From an uncultured Pelagibacteraceae bacterium (GTDB taxonomy: Bacteria; Pseudomonadota; Alphaproteobacteria; Pelagibacterales; Pelagibacteraceae): 64,000 nt of DNA. Below are positions 43,495 through 49,102 of this stretch, piece after piece (the first letter of the stretch is position 1; each line of letters starts with the position of its first letter). A program made the position numbers and the translations under genes. The stretch spans positions 1-64,000 of the forward strand of contig CACNAR010000001.1 in NCBI GenBank assembly GCA_902618485.1. Reading direction: 5' to 3'. The notes below the pieces were generated by a model that worked only from the letters and a program-made list of their open reading frames with translations, was not told the DNA's origin and did not search any database.

Positions 43495-44058
43495 GTGAAA
43501 ATTTTTTTTTTGATCACAATTTTATTATTAACTTTAAAAAGTTTTGCATTCTCAAAAGATAATTCATTTTATCCTGATGATTTATTTCATATAGACCATA
43601 TGGACTCACACAATAAAAAATTTGCACTATATTTTAAGACACGAAAGAAATCTATTTTGGCCAAAGGTGAAGAGAGTAATTATATAAATGATTACCCAAA
43701 AGATCTTTATATCTATAATTATTCAACAAAGTCCTCATCACCATTAATCTCTTATGATTGGTTTCCCTCTCAAGCCAAGTTTCATTTAACGGAATATAAC
43801 TTTCCCGTATTTCCAGATGATTTTGCCTATTACCTTTTAAAAGATGATAAAACCCTCGTAATGATTAGTGCAGTAAAAAGTTTAAATGCTAATTTCAAAT
43901 ACGATATTTTTAATAAGAAACTTGAACTCTATCCGACTACGGGAAAATTTGATTTTATTATTTCTTCGTTCTCTAAGGATTGTGGGCATTATAAATTTAA
44001 AGATAATTATGAGTGCAGTATTTATAAACCTTTAATTTCAAGTAATTTGATTAACTAA
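43495..44058 (+). CDS. Exported protein, unknown function
   Basis: A 187-residue protein starting at a GTG, with a signal peptide (about residues 1-20, KIFFLITILLLTLKSFAFS). The mature part is polar and mixed alpha/beta with two Cys near the C-terminus (KDCGHYKF, YECSIYKP), probably a disulphide. No motif is recognised. It converges with ftsY with an eight-base overlap. Confidence 0.65.
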   Translation: MKIFFLITILLLTLKSFAFSKDNSFYPDDLFHIDHMDSHNKKFALYFKTRKKSILAKGEESNYINDYPKDLYIYNYSTKSSSPLISYDWFPSQAKFHLTEYNFPVFPDDFAYYLLKDDKTLVMISAVKSLNANFKYDIFNKKLELYPTTGKFDFIISSFSKDCGHYKFKDNYECSIYKPLISSNLIN

Positions 44059-44968
44059 CTTGTGTAAAAGCCTCAGCAAATTTTTCTGCATTGAATAATT
44101 CTAAATCATCTTCTTTTTCACCTAAGCCTAAAGCAATAATAGGTAGTTGATATTTTTTTGCAATTGCCAGCAGAATACCACCTTTGGCTGTTCCATCTAA
44201 TTTGGTCATGATCAAACCAGTTAAAGGAATAATTTTGTTAAATTCCTCCACTTGATTAATCACATTTTGTCCTGATGTTGCATCTAAAACTAAAATAATA
44301 TTGTGAGGAGCATCTTGGTCAATTTTTTTTGTTACATTGGCTATCTTTTTATATTCTTCCATTAAGTTTTTTTTATTTTGTAGTCTTCCAGCAGTATCGA
44401 TTAAAACTTGGTGAAAATTATTTTTGATTGCTTCCTCAACTGCTTTGTATGCCACCGATGCTGGATCAGAACCTTGAGATGATTTAGTTAATTTTACGTC
44501 AATTTTATTTGCCCAATTTTCTAATTGTTCAATAGCAGCTGCCCGAAATGTGTCAGAAGCAGCAAACATAACTTTGTTGCCATTAGTTTTTAATATTTTA
44601 CCTATTTTACCAATAGTTGTTGTTTTACCAACACCATTTACTCCTGAGATTAAAGTTGCGTTGAGTTTATCTTTTTTTTCAAAAAAAGAATTATTTTCTA
44701 AAGGTTTCATTAAATTAACAATGTACTCTTTTAGAATAAGATTTATCTCAGTTGAGAGATCTTTGTTTGGATCAATTTTTTTATTTGAAATGATTTCTCT
44801 AATTTCGGATGCAGCCTCGACACCAACATCAGACTCAATTAAAAACTCCTCAATTTTATCTAAATTTTTATCGTCAATCTCTTTTTTTATTATTATTTCT
44901 TTTAATCCAGATGTTAGTGCGGATGCACTTTTTTTGAAACCTTTCTTAAATTTATCAAAAATTCCCAT
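44051..44968 (-). CDS. ftsY: Signal recognition particle receptor FtsY
   Basis: A 305-residue SRP GTPase made of N and G domains, without the acidic A domain found in E. coli. The G1 motif is GVNGVGKTTTIGKI (about residues 110-123), followed by DTFRAAAIEQL, the DTAGR motif, ILVLDATSGQN and the G4 region MTKLDGTAKGG. It docks Ffh-bound ribosomes at the membrane. The stop of dapF overlaps its start, and it lies near ffh on the other strand. Confidence 0.96.
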   Translation of the reverse strand: MGIFDKFKKGFKKSASALTSGLKEIIIKKEIDDKNLDKIEEFLIESDVGVEAASEIREIISNKKIDPNKDLSTEINLILKEYIVNLMKPLENNSFFEKKDKLNATLISGVNGVGKTTTIGKIGKILKTNGNKVMFAASDTFRAAAIEQLENWANKIDVKLTKSSQGSDPASVAYKAVEEAIKNNFHQVLIDTAGRLQNKKNLMEEYKKIANVTKKIDQDAPHNIILVLDATSGQNVINQVEEFNKIIPLTGLIMTKLDGTAKGGILLAIAKKYQLPIIALGLGEKEDDLELFNAEKFAEAFTQVS

Positions 44969-45792
44969 TATAGTTTGATTTCAATTTCTTTTATTTCTGA
45001 AACGGGTCCTTTCATGTGAATTGAATTTCTATCATCTATAAGAATTGATAACTTACCTGCTTGAAATTCTATGTCTGTTTTATTTTCATTAAGATTATTT
45101 AATTTACCAGCAAATGCAGTTGCGCATGCAGCTGTTCCACATGCTTTGGTTAGCCCAGCCCCTCTCTCCCATACTTTTACTTTAATCAAATTTTTATTAA
45201 TTATTTTAGCAATTGTAACATTACATTTTTCTGGAAAAATTTTATGATTTTCAATTTCTGGTCCAATTTTTTCAATATTAAAATTTTCAATTTCGTTTAC
45301 AAAAAAAACAATATGTGGATTTCCAACATTAACAGCAGTACCACCCAAATGTTCTTTATTATTTAAATCAGTGATTTTAATATTCAAATTTTTAGTATCT
45401 AATTTTTCCGATAAAGGAATTTCGTTCCATTGTAATTTAGCTTTACCAATTTCAGTTGTAACAAGATTTTTATCTAAAATTTTTGACTCTAAATTTCCAT
45501 TTAAAGTAGATAAAATGATCTTTTCAGTTTTTGTTTCTTCAGAGATTAATTTTGCAACACATCTAGTGCCATTTCCACATGCACCAGACTCCCCTCCATC
45601 AGAATTAAAAAATTTTAAATTCGCATCACTTGATTTGCTGGACTCAATAAATATTAATTGATCACAACCAATAAAATTTCTATCACAAATCTTTATAATT
45701 TGATCTTTAGTTAAATTGGTAATTTTTTGTCTATTATCAATGATGACAAAATCATTACCTAATCCATCCATTTTAAAAGCTCTAATCTCCAT
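44968..45792 (-). CDS. dapF: Diaminopimelate epimerase
   Basis: A 274-residue cofactor-free racemase that makes meso-diaminopimelate for lysine and peptidoglycan synthesis. The two catalytic Cys lie in SGACGNGTRCVA and KACGTAACA. MDGLGNDFVIID at the start and GNPHIVFFV in the middle are typical. It is translationally linked to ftsY (one-base overlap). In other Alphaproteobacteria a miaB-like gene often separates dapF and ftsY; none is present here. Confidence 0.96.
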   Translation of the reverse strand: MEIRAFKMDGLGNDFVIIDNRQKITNLTKDQIIKICDRNFIGCDQLIFIESSKSSDANLKFFNSDGGESGACGNGTRCVAKLISEETKTEKIILSTLNGNLESKILDKNLVTTEIGKAKLQWNEIPLSEKLDTKNLNIKITDLNNKEHLGGTAVNVGNPHIVFFVNEIENFNIEKIGPEIENHKIFPEKCNVTIAKIINKNLIKVKVWERGAGLTKACGTAACATAFAGKLNNLNENKTDIEFQAGKLSILIDDRNSIHMKGPVSEIKEIEIKL

Positions 45793-45814: not shown

Positions 45815-45840
45815 TTGACTTTTTGAACCTCTATTATAGT
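45815..45840 (+). promoter_or_regulatory. Possible ffh promoter
   Basis: TTGACT (45815-45820) and TATAGT (45835-45840) are good matches to sigma-70 boxes, though the 14-base spacing is shorter than ideal. Transcription would start near 45846, almost exactly where the closing stem of the leader structure begins. Confidence 0.4.
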
Positions 45841-45843
45841 TTG

Positions 45844-45941
45844 TGGCAGTTTCCGCAAAAACGTTAAATTTGCGGTGTCTTTGGAAACAAAGAGATCGAC
45901 ACTAGTCAGCGAGGGTTCGCCCACTAGTGCGATTACTGCTG
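45844..45941 (+). ncRNA. Candidate structured leader RNA upstream of ffh
   Basis: The 98 bases before ffh fold by eye into a multibranched structure. A closing stem is formed by 45844-45850 with 45935-45941 (seven pairs, two of them G-U). Inside are hairpin A, 45853-45859 with 45869-45875 (CCGCAAA/TTTGCGG). Hairpin B is 45878-45883 with 45888-45893, capped by a GAAA tetraloop. Hairpin C is 45900-45906 with 45923-45929 (CACTAGT/ACTAGTG) and an inner GCGA/TCGC stem or a GGG-TTCG-CCC alternative. The GNRA and TTCG loops occur on the plus strand only, so the RNA is read with ffh. It ends 12 bases before the ffh ATG, suiting a cis-regulator. Confidence 0.5.
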
Positions 45942-45953
45942 GGTGAAATAAAT

Positions 45954-47312
45954 ATGTTTGAAAATTTGACAAATAAATTTGAGGAAGTCTTTTCCTCTTT
46001 AAAAAAAGCACCTTCGCTTGACGAGAGTCAAGTTGACGAAGGTCTTAGATCCATTAGGCAAGCTTTATTAGAAGCTGACGTATCACTTGATGTTGCAAAA
46101 GAGTTCATTGAAAAAATTAAACCTAAAGCTTTAGGACAAGAAATCATCAGATCCACGTCTCCTGGCGATATGGTTGTTAAGATTGTTTACGACGAATTAG
46201 TATCTTTATTAGGTGAAAAAAATAATGATGTAAATCTTAATGCCGTACCACCAGTGCCTATGATGTTAGTTGGTCTGCAGGGTTCTGGTAAAACTACAAC
46301 TACCGCTAAACTTGCAAAATATTTGGAAAATAACAAAAAAAAAAGAGTTATGATGGTGAGTTTAGATATTTATAGGCCAGCGGCCCAAGAGCAATTAAAA
46401 TCTTTAGGTGAACAAAATAATATTTTAACTTTGCCAATAATTGAAGGGCAACAACCTGCTGATATTTGTCAAAGAGCAATTAGCGCTGCAAATCTAAATG
46501 GTGCTGATGTAATTTTATTTGATACAGCAGGTAGAACACAAATAGATTTACAAATGATGAGTGAAATTAAACAAATCGAGAATATAATTAAACCTGCTGA
46601 AACCTTTTTAGTTGCTGACTCTTTGACTGGTCAAGTAGCAGCATCCGTAGCAAAAGAATTTAAAGATACTGTAAATCTCTCTGGTATAATTTTAACAAGA
46701 GCTGATGGTGATGCAAGAGGTGGAGCCGCAGTTAGTATGAAATTTATCTCACAAGTACCAATTAAATTTTTGGGTATCGGAGAAAAAATTAATAATCTTG
46801 AGGTTTTTCATCCAGATAGAATTGCTAATAGAATTTTAGGGATGGGAGATATTGTTTCTCTAGTAGAGAAAGCGGCTCAAGATCTTGGAGAAGAAAATAT
46901 TAAAAAGGCCGAAGAGAATTTAAAAAAGGGACAATTTTCTATGGAAGATTATTTGGCACAACTACGACAAATGAAAAAAATGGGTGGAATAGAAGGCATC
47001 ATGTCTTTTATGCCTGGTGTTTCAAAAGTTAAATCACAAATGGATGCGGCTGGAATTGATGAGAGTATTATTACAAAGAATGAAGCTATAATATTGTCTA
47101 TGACAAAAAAAGAGAGAGAGAACCCAAAGATAATTGATGGTTCTAGAAAAAAAAGAATTGCTAATGGTTCTGGCACAGATCCAGCCACTATCAATAAGTT
47201 GTTAAAACAATTTAAAATGATGTCTGAAATGATGAAAAAGATGTCAAAGGGTAATCTGAAAGGTATGACTGACAAAGGAATACCTCCAGAATTATTTAAT
47301 CAATTAAAATAA
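45954..47312 (+). CDS. ffh: Signal recognition particle protein Ffh
   Basis: A 452-residue SRP54 GTPase with N, G and M domains. The start MFENLTNKFEEVF at 45954 matches the family; a GTG nine codons upstream lies within the leader structure and is rejected. G1 is GLQGSGKTTTTAKL, followed by DIYRPAAQEQL, DTAGR and TRADGDARGGAA. The M domain from about residue 300 has the methionine-rich MKKMGGIEGIMSFMPG and a C-terminal SGTDPATINKLLKQFKMMSEMMKKM that binds SRP RNA and signal peptides. rpsP follows after 17 bases. Confidence 0.97.
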   Translation: MFENLTNKFEEVFSSLKKAPSLDESQVDEGLRSIRQALLEADVSLDVAKEFIEKIKPKALGQEIIRSTSPGDMVVKIVYDELVSLLGEKNNDVNLNAVPPVPMMLVGLQGSGKTTTTAKLAKYLENNKKKRVMMVSLDIYRPAAQEQLKSLGEQNNILTLPIIEGQQPADICQRAISAANLNGADVILFDTAGRTQIDLQMMSEIKQIENIIKPAETFLVADSLTGQVAASVAKEFKDTVNLSGIILTRADGDARGGAAVSMKFISQVPIKFLGIGEKINNLEVFHPDRIANRILGMGDIVSLVEKAAQDLGEENIKKAEENLKKGQFSMEDYLAQLRQMKKMGGIEGIMSFMPGVSKVKSQMDAAGIDESIITKNEAIILSMTKKERENPKIIDGSRKKRIANGSGTDPATINKLLKQFKMMSEMMKKMSKGNLKGMTDKGIPPELFNQLK

Positions 47313-47329: not shown

Positions 47330-47809
47330 ATGTTAAAGTTAAGATTATCAAGAGGCGGAACTAAGAAAAGACCCGTTTATAAAGTAGTTGTTGCAGACAG
47401 TCGTTTTGCAAGAGATGGTAGATTTATAGAGAAAGTGGGATTTTTTAATCCACTACTGCCAAAGGAAAAAAAGGAAAGAATTGGATTAGAAGCAGAACGA
47501 ATAAAGTATTGGTTGGGTCAAGGCGCACAACCAACAACTAGAGTAGCAAGGATTTTAGGTGAAAACGAATTGATGCCTATGCCGGCGAATGGAAATAATC
47601 CTCAGAAAGCTATTCCAAAAAAAGATCGAAAAAAAGAAGGCAGTGAGGACGGTAAAAAAGAAGAAGCTCCAAAAGCAGAAGCTAAAAAAGAAGAAGCTCC
47701 AAAAGTAGAAGCTAAAAAAGAAGAAGCTAAAAAAGAAGAAGCTCCAAAAGAAGAAGCTCCAAAAGCAGAAGCTCCAAAAGCAGAAGCTAAAAAAGAGGAA
47801 AAGAAATAA
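47330..47809 (+). CDS. rpsP: Ribosomal protein S16 with a repetitive C-terminal tail
   Basis: A 159-residue protein of the 30S subunit. Residues 1 to about 90 are an ordinary S16 ([52 protein letters not shown]). Residues from about 98 onward are a low-complexity tail of repeated [10 protein letters not shown]-type units, encoded by near-perfect 30-base repeats. The usual length is 80-100 residues. rimM, which normally lies between rpsP and trmD, is not present. Confidence 0.96.
47654..47803 (+). repeat. Tandem repeat in the rpsP 3' end
   Basis: Units of 30 bases (first 47654-47683, second 47684-47713, differing at one position) followed by shorter 15-base variants made of AAAAAAGAAGAAGCT and CCAAAAGCAGAAGCT-like blocks. 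All are in frame and encode Lys, Glu, Ala and Pro. Slippage could readily change the tail length. Confidence 0.9.
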
Positions 47810-47823
47810 TACAAAGATTATTT

Positions 47824-48510
47824 ATGATGCAAGCTCAAGTATTTACACTTTATCCGGAAGTTTTCCCTGGGCCTTTAAATAAAGGTATTTACAGTAAAGC
47901 AATGGTTAAAAAGTTATGGAGCTTAAAAGTAATTAATATTAGAGACTCTGCTCAAGATAAACATAAAACAGTTGATGATACTCCTTACGGCGGTGGCACA
48001 GGTATGTTAATTAAACCAGATGTCTTGGCGAATTCTATTGATCAAAATGTAAATAAGGGAGATAAAATTTTTTATCTTTCACCAAAAGGTAAAAGATTTG
48101 ATCAAAAATTTGCACAAGATTTATCTAAAGAAAAATCATTTTCTTTAATTTGTGGACAGTTCGAGGGTGTTGATGAAAGAGTTTTGGGTACAAGAAATAT
48201 TGAAGAGGTGAGCATTGGAGATTATGTATTATCAGGAGGAGAAACGGCAGCTTTGGTTATTCTAGATAGCGTTTTAAGACTTTTACCTGGAGTTTTAGGA
48301 AATGATAAATCTCCAGCTGATGAAACTTTTGAAAATGGTCTTTTAGAGTATCCGCAGTTCACAAAACCTCAAATATGGGAAGAAAAAGCAGTGCCAGAAG
48401 TGTTATTATCTGGAGATCACAATAAAATTAAAGACTGGCGTTTATCTCAATCTGAGGCTATAACACGCGACCGAAGACCAGATTTGTGGCAAAAATATAA
48501 GAAAGATTAA
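47824..48510 (+). CDS. trmD: tRNA (guanine-37-N1)-methyltransferase
   Basis: A 228-residue SPOUT-class enzyme that methylates G37 of tRNAs reading CNN codons. [11 protein letters not shown] at the start, [17 protein letters not shown], the knot residues [30 protein letters not shown] and RPDLWQKY at the C-terminus are all family marks. It follows rpsP by 14 bases, where rimM is normally found. The two ATG codons at 47824 and 47827 make the exact start uncertain by one residue. Confidence 0.96.
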
Positions 48511-48526
48511 ATTGATAAATACTGAA

Positions 48527-49102
48527 ATGAAAACAATAGAGGAAATTAACCAAAACAACGTTAAAAAGATTCTCTCTGAAAAAAAGATACCTGAATTTTT
48601 CCCAGGAGATGTTGTAAAAGTTGGAGTAAGAATTACAGAGGGTAAAAAAGAGAGAATTCAATATTTTGAAGGAGTATGTATTGCTAAAAAAAGTAGAGAC
48701 CTAAACTCCTCGTTTACTGTCAGAAAAATATCATTTGGTGAGGGAGTTGAGAGAACATTTCCATTGTTTGGAACTGTGATTGACTCAATTAAAGTAATTC
48801 GATCTGGAAAAGTAAGAAGAGCAAAACTTTACTATTTAAGAGACAGAACTGGGAAGTCAGCAAGAATTGCCGAAAAGATTAGAAAAAAAATTGGTATCGA
48901 TGTTGATGTTAAACCAGAAACAGTAACTGAGGAAAATTTAGCTCCAATCACTGAAGAAAATACTTCAGAAATTAAAAATGAGGCTGCACCAGCGGTTGAG
49001 CCAAAAATAGACGAAACTTCAAAAAATGAAGTTAAAAAAGATGCCCCTAAGGCCGAAACTAGTACAGAAAAAAAGCTTGAAAACTTACAAGAAAAAAAAT
49101 AA
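48527..49102 (+). CDS. rplS: Ribosomal protein L19 with an extended C-terminal tail
   Basis: A 191-residue 50S protein. The L19 core runs to about residue 115 ([70 protein letters not shown]). Beyond it lies a 70-residue tail rich in Glu, Lys, Ala and Pro, absent in most L19 proteins and reminiscent of the S16 tail. I prefer the ATG at 48527; a TTG at 48512 would add five residues with no family support. Confidence 0.94.

Follow-up and report, generated by a model that had tools for sequence, protein, structure and literature searches.

The ffh motif is the closest described relative of the RNA considered here. It was reported by Meyer et al. 2009 (PMC2704228) as one bulged hairpin preceding ffh in 'Cand. 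Pelagibacter ubique', was placed in the ffh-dapF intergenic region of this organism in Table 1 of that paper, and was found in sequenced Rhodobacterales, Sphingomonadales and Rhizobiales; a regulation of ffh was considered possible. Transcripts of the motif were reported as small RNAs (PMC2704228), as was an 'ffH leader RNA' in Bartonella (PMC7717549), and an sRNA of about 120 nt was predicted between dapF and ffh of Sinorhizobium (PMC2573895). An expressed RNA on a plasmid of Mesorhizobium huakuii, MH_s5, is labelled RF01793 in a published table (PMC5596092), this being the Rfam family of the motif, for which Rfam gives the type 'Gene; sRNA'. Among leaders of ribosomal protein genes, an S16 leader was proposed in Flavobacteria (Eckert and Weinberg 2020, PMC7247131), and Firmicutes are known to have leaders for L19 (PMC7247131). 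The Flavobacteria S16 leader lies directly before rpsP-rimM, and the paper makes no mention of ffh.

We analysed a stretch of 64,000 nucleotides (the window) from an uncultured Pelagibacteraceae bacterium, in which an RNA of the RF01793 family precedes ffh (Table 1). We propose that this RNA is the 5' leader of an ffh-rpsP-trmD-rplS operon, with three tandem hairpins and its own promoter, and that it acts as an autogenous ribosomal protein leader most likely bound by S16; we give this reading a probability of roughly 45%. The likeness to the Flavobacteria S16 leader consists in the proposed autogenous control of rpsP, and the two are likened by context and not by structure, the Flavobacteria leader belonging to another phylum.

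The RF01793 member of the window and its fold

Among all Rfam models, RF01793 gave the sole match above its cut-off in the window, covering the full model (1-52) with 54.4 bits at a cut-off of 35. Score, position upstream of ffh on its coding strand and the cytosine pair in the internal loop all place the RNA in this family. Between 45700 and 46100 nothing else in Rfam was matched at E values up to 1, including the known riboswitch classes and RF00169, the bacterial small SRP RNA, to which the sole link of the window RNA is a functional one via Ffh. The initial annotation had proposed a conserved structured leader upstream of ffh, which is borne out by the family membership. It had also regarded the leader as new unless a strong Rfam match was found, and this novelty is lost, since the core of the RNA was published in 2009 (PMC2704228). 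The window RNA has H3, the place before ffh and the occurrence in Alphaproteobacteria including SAR11 in common with the published motif. The catalogued element, however, is a single bulged hairpin described by a 52-nt model, whereas we additionally found H1 and H2 with covariation and re-assign the target to the rpsP operon.

Table 1. Positions of the leader RNA, its putative promoter and the downstream genes in the window
Feature	Position	Strand	Description
Promoter (predicted)	45815..45842	+	-35 TTGACT 45815-45820, 16-nt spacer, -10 TAGTTT 45837-45842
Hairpin H1	45853..45875	+	CCGCAAA...UUUGCGG; 90.4% of cells paired, both-side changes at 4 of 7 pairs in 29 sequences chosen by hand from SAR11 and other Alphaproteobacteria
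Hairpin H2	45873..45898	+	Inner stem 45878-45883/45888-45893; proposed extension CGGU 45873-45876/AUCG 45895-45898
Hairpin H3	45900..45929	+	Core of RF01793 (Rfam match 45885-45938); C45907 faces C45922
Tail	45930..45946	+	CGAUUACUGCUGGGUGA, compared by eye; Shine-Dalgarno-like GGGUGA at 45941-45946 (putative role)
ffh	45954..47312	+	TIGR00959, 558 bits, cut-off 473.2
rpsP (S16)	47330..47809	+	TIGR00002, 99.3 bits, cut-off 45.3; proposed target and ligand
trmD	47824..48510	+	NF000648 295.1 bits, TIGR00088 278.3 bits; putative operon member by spacing
rplS (L19)	48512..49102	+	TIGR01024, 140.6 bits; putative operon member by spacing

In the window ftsY and dapF (44051-45792) are minus-strand genes, divergent from the plus-strand genes ffh, rpsP, trmD and rplS. 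The genes for the SRP protein and the SRP receptor thus flank dapF and one short intergenic region. A query with RimM of the PS1 clade (see below) found no rimM between rpsP and trmD (47330-48510), unlike in PS1 itself (L116) and in 59 of 60 named alphaproteobacterial loci, where rimM was matched near rpsP. Both S16 and L19 of the window carry long C-terminal tails rich in Lys, Glu and Ala; the tail of PS1 S16 is rich in Ala, Pro and Glu.

Folded on the ffh strand, region 45844-45941 reached -40.2 kcal/mol (z -5.13), a value equalled by 0 of 200 shuffles. This agrees with the initial annotation, and so do the raised G/C content (48% in the RNA region vs 31.4% in the window), the GAAA tetraloop at 45884-45887 and the end of the structure 12 nt before the ffh ATG. 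In SAR11 relatives the tetraloop position is occupied by GUAA, GCAA or GUUA, and by different loops elsewhere. A suggested TTCG loop was not recovered, as there is no UUCG tetraloop and H3 is closed by GCGA/UCGC around the loop GGGU. The assignment to the ffh-coding strand is supported by the Rfam match and the promoter, both on the plus strand, but not by energy: the antisense was equally or more stable (z -6.50), and folding energy is therefore insufficient to assign the strand.

A larger correction concerns the multibranched form held together by a closing stem (45845-45850/45935-45940). For the window RNA this stem contributes 6.5 kcal/mol (-40.2 vs -33.7), yet among 47 distinct SAR11-group sequences only 56.0% of its cells were paired and one of its six pairs had changed on both sides. 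We rejected it because of this low pairing and because most of its 5' strand precedes the predicted transcript start; three tandem hairpins are supported instead. The promoter that was expected to start transcription right at this stem is present as the promoter-like TTGACT-N16-TAGTTT, although the start predicted from the usual distance of 6-7 nt after the -10 box (about 45848-45850) falls inside the 5' strand of the stem. Energy favours a further pairing in the window RNA, GAUCG/CGAUU (pair probability 0.70), which is part of the predicted fold and competes with CGGU/AUCG (see below). We likewise discarded it, as it was paired in 80.7% of cells and broken in up to 14 of the 47 SAR11-group rows per pair.

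Additional hairpins and a proposed alternative pairing

Conservation of the hairpins was assessed in the SAR11 group after identical segments had been dropped (54 to 47 in alignment A1, 54 to 30 in A2). In the 47 distinct sequences, H3 was paired in 100% of cells with both-side changes at 2 of 11 pairs, H2 in 94.0% with changes at 4 of 6 pairs, and H1 in 92.4% with a change at 1 of 7 pairs. We also compared 29 loci from SAR11 and other Alphaproteobacteria (A3), which were chosen by hand, are biased to lineages with a CCGG-type H1 and include two loci (L056, L078) whose starts were set by hand. In this set H1 and H2 together had 79 double-changed cells, compared with 27.4 +/- 4.2 in shuffles and 6-18 in slid versions of the stems. 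With the alternative pairing described below, the count was again 79 (27.6 +/- 4.3 in shuffles).

The 60 nt upstream of H3 had a mean z of -2.51 among 35 segments of the SAR11 group, with flanking controls at -0.15 and -0.96. Among 103 other loci the mean was -1.30, with controls at -0.23 and 0.09, and just 28% of these loci were below -2. A stem test with shuffles was weak for single loci, with p <=0.05 in 46% of 24 SAR11-group loci and 30% of 103 other loci. H2 may be as short as a 14-nt hairpin in lineages further away, frequently with a CGAG or CAAG loop. A geometry of 5 bp and a 4-nt loop, tried at two offsets, occurred in 28 of 103 distant loci and at about 1% per position elsewhere; these 28 were picked for pairing, and the evidence lies in their number, not in covariation. 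A model of SAR11-group H1-H2 built without the Rfam core (R1) found the matching place in locus L085 (E 2.5e-8, search space 334 kb). When 100 of the 105 loci from outside the SAR11 group were searched, it gave eight matches, one in place and seven out of place. A second model (R2) gave 19 matches over 90 loci, the strongest of which (L059, E 5.9e-6; L071, E 1.1e-4) were in place, as were few of the weaker ones; since both loci are congeneric with training rows (L058, L061), R2 is not independent proof. As H1 and H2 are conserved with covariation, the RNA looks like a three-hairpin element of about 95 nt directly after a conserved promoter, larger than the catalogued one.

In the RNAalifold consensus CGGU was paired with AUCG, which extends H2 (Table 1). 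The extended H2 was paired in 92.6% of cells of A3, with both-side changes at seven of its nine pairs. The CGGU/AUCG extension itself is intact throughout A2 and A3, although two of the four pairs are invariant there and thus uninformative. The base of H1, itself almost without variation, shares C45873-G45875 with this extension. From the comparison, H2 probably extends in this way and competes with the base of H1. In two loci of the SAR11 family (L076 and L077) both partners of the shared C had changed together with it, from G-C-G to A-U-A, a change that probably arose once and is weak evidence by itself. For the window RNA, the form with extended H2 is predicted to be 7.9 kcal/mol worse than the form with H1 (-25.8 vs -33.7), and the pair probability is 0.58 for the base of H1 and 0.25 for the extension. 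The favoured form therefore differs between prediction for the window RNA alone (H1) and sequence comparison (extended H2), and two functional states of the leader are put forward as a proposal only.

Promoter, spacing and gene context across Alphaproteobacteria

Every one of 152 distinct loci has a TTGAC no more than 130 nt before H3, compared with 9.3% of background windows. Its median distance to H3 was 85-86 nt (range 44-114; 10th-90th percentile outside SAR11 74-96 nt), and the best -10 hexamer began with TA in 126 of the 152 loci, in a scan that favoured TA. The distance from the RNA to the start codon varied outside SAR11 from 8 to 284 nt (10th-90th percentile 19-89), and a single simple translation switch is therefore not obvious. 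By eye, repeats were seen between RNA and ffh in loci L065, L066, L067 and L073, and in L053 a sequence resembling a short open frame; such inserts bring RNA and start codon up to 284 nt apart. The tail after H3, roughly UUNNUG..UUGG, looks conserved across loci by eye and is not clearly paired.

Within H3, the C facing C of the internal loop was present in 156 of 158 placed loci (L101 was not placeable) and is the one fixed feature. The adjoining position was A.C in 101 loci, C-G in 23, A.A in 11, G.U in 8, U-A in 7 and others in 8. A nearly invariant mismatch suggests a specific contact or fold, which argues against a leader without any ligand, i.e. a stable 5' structure that would protect the mRNA or set its processing and translation. 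Such a structure would fit the place close behind the promoter, stems that tolerate much sequence change and the variable distance to the start codon, and we consider it rather unlikely but the most plausible of the alternatives weighed here. Mimicry of SRP RNA by H3 was considered and rejected, as only the C facing C is kept and the next position varies. Mimicry of 16S rRNA was looked for by eye at h15 in four genomes and at h17 in two (L259, L263), and nothing clear emerged.

A search of 386 genomes of the class gave matches in 113 at E up to 0.001, of which 89 were above the Rfam cut-off. Besides the window's own match, loci were fetched for 109 of 112; the three left out (G173, G234 and G398) were all below the cut-off, as are 21 of the 105 loci from outside the SAR11 group. 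Among the 61 genomes of the SAR11 group that were searched, 50 have the motif; of the 19 that are at least 90% complete, 17 do. All 50 loci have it between ffh and a divergent dapF. Outside this group 98 of the 105 loci precede ffh, four precede rpsP without ffh, and three lie on contigs that end first. Of the 71 loci with more than 1900 nt of downstream sequence, 70 have rpsP downstream. In the exception, L101 (G276:C222), a shortened ffh runs into recF- and dnaN-like genes by eye, and the contig is probably chimeric. The genes rimM, trmD and rplS usually come next, as in 50 of 60 named loci whose sequence runs on for at least 3.5 kb from the start of rpsP. In two sphingomonads (L221 and L228), in which the motif was found by pattern search, trmD lies 3.6-3.7 kb after rpsP. 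This pattern search recovered 90 of the 159 known loci, and absences in its table therefore mean little.

Of all 159 loci 156 can be judged, and in each of these the RNA lies upstream of ffh or rpsP and shares its strand. This speaks against a separate trans-acting small RNA that merely happens to be located before ffh, as does the lack, on reading the window, of a T-run hairpin between RNA and ffh ATG. The Rfam type, the own promoter, the reported or predicted small RNAs (PMC2704228, PMC7717549, PMC2573895) and the Mesorhizobium plasmid RNA labelled RF01793 (PMC5596092) would all suit such an RNA, which we nevertheless regard as very improbable. The RNA agrees with ribosomal protein leaders in being conserved, structured and located in the 5' UTR of a ribosomal protein operon, a location deduced from the promoter.

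The PS1 clade and the candidate ligand of the leader

All four loci with rpsP but without ffh came from one family, f48, the PS1 clade or OCS116 cluster. A search at order level around this clade yielded the same 18 genomes. The motif was found in 14 of them, one of the four others being 96% complete (G446). The rpsP match started 33-40 nt after the motif in 14 of 14, and dapF was divergent in the 13 of 14 loci that reach that far. In a Pfam search for the SRP54 GTPase family, to which both Ffh and FtsY belong, none of the 18 PS1 genomes, six of them at least 90% complete, had a match above the cut-off; one match below it reads as a CysC-type kinase. As controls, 14 genomes and a SAR11 genome were searched in the same way; all 14 had the family, and the SAR11 genome had it twice. 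SecY was present in 14 of 18 PS1 genomes and in six of the six good ones. A search with Ffh of the window in four PS1 genomes, run without positive control, was empty. RF00169 was found neither in the 18 PS1 genomes nor in the window's own 90% complete assembly (G000), and these misses say little because SAR11 ('Cand. P. ubique') was reported to have 4.5S RNA (PMC2704228). PS1 represents a single lineage, sampled in draft genomes, and hence one evolutionary event. It seems to have lost the SRP pathway altogether. Such a loss in the 18 genomes of f48 (loci L160-L173) would be unusual in free-living bacteria, and SRP is usually taken as near-universal. We found no paper in the open-licence literature that treats both the PS1 clade and the signal recognition particle.

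In the PS1 sequences (A4, from which two identical rows and one with an N were dropped), stems were taken as the longest stem ending beside H3 and pairs were read sequence by sequence. Pairs of H2 were kept through compensatory changes, e.g. from G-C to A-U and from U-A to C-G, which indicates that selection on the structure continued where the SRP proteins appear absent. This bears directly on the proposal, made in the initial annotation and close to the ffh regulation raised by Meyer et al. 2009, that Ffh or SRP RNA is sensed by the leader and represses ffh. The proposal draws on ffh being the downstream gene in all SAR11-group loci and 98 of the 105 others. It also draws on a GUCAG on the 5' side of H3, a motif that occurs near the Ffh site in SRP RNA as well. 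It is opposed by the RNA being retained before rpsP in PS1, in 14 of 18 genomes and with its compensatory changes, where SRP54-type GTPases were detected in 0 of 18; nor is the position adjoining the C.C mismatch kept, as A.C is found in only 101 of 158 loci. Provided that the PS1 result stands, the conserved function is unlikely to be the sensing of Ffh or SRP RNA, which we rate as decidedly improbable for the window leader.

Because PS1 keeps the RNA before rpsP without detectable SRP proteins, we assign the leader to the rpsP operon, and the conserved RNA seems to go with this operon rather than with ffh. We consider S16 the most likely ligand, with moderate confidence, since rpsP is the first gene once ffh is gone and by analogy with ribosomal protein leaders. 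L19 or TrmD might be bound in place of S16, given that rplS and trmD follow in the window and in most operons examined and that Firmicutes have leaders for L19 (PMC7247131). This is improbable in our view, as rpsP lies closest to the RNA in loci that lack ffh and trmD is remote from rpsP in the two motif-bearing sphingomonads.

Under control by S16, a leader RNA beginning just after its own promoter and reaching to 12 nt before the ffh start codon would be bound by free S16, and expression of the ffh-rpsP-trmD-rplS operon would be lowered. Binding may shift the CGG at 45873-45875 between pairing with CCG in H1 and with UCG in the extended H2. The ffh gene would be carried along, and synthesis of the export particle would thereby be coupled to that of ribosomes. 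A broader reading is possible, and we offer it tentatively: the 'ffh motif' may be both misnamed and truncated, the full element being a three-hairpin, possibly two-state autogenous S16 leader across Alphaproteobacteria, with Ffh under ribosomal protein control and PS1 as a natural experiment.

Since 2009 the motif has been known as ffh, together with a guess about SRP regulation, and a free-living clade without SRP GTPases would be a surprise in itself. If the RNA is the leader of the rpsP operon, the search for its ligand should begin with S16, and the Rfam model should gain some 30-40 nt on its upstream side. Such a leader would also suggest a way in which Alphaproteobacteria link the supply of export particles to the supply of ribosomes.
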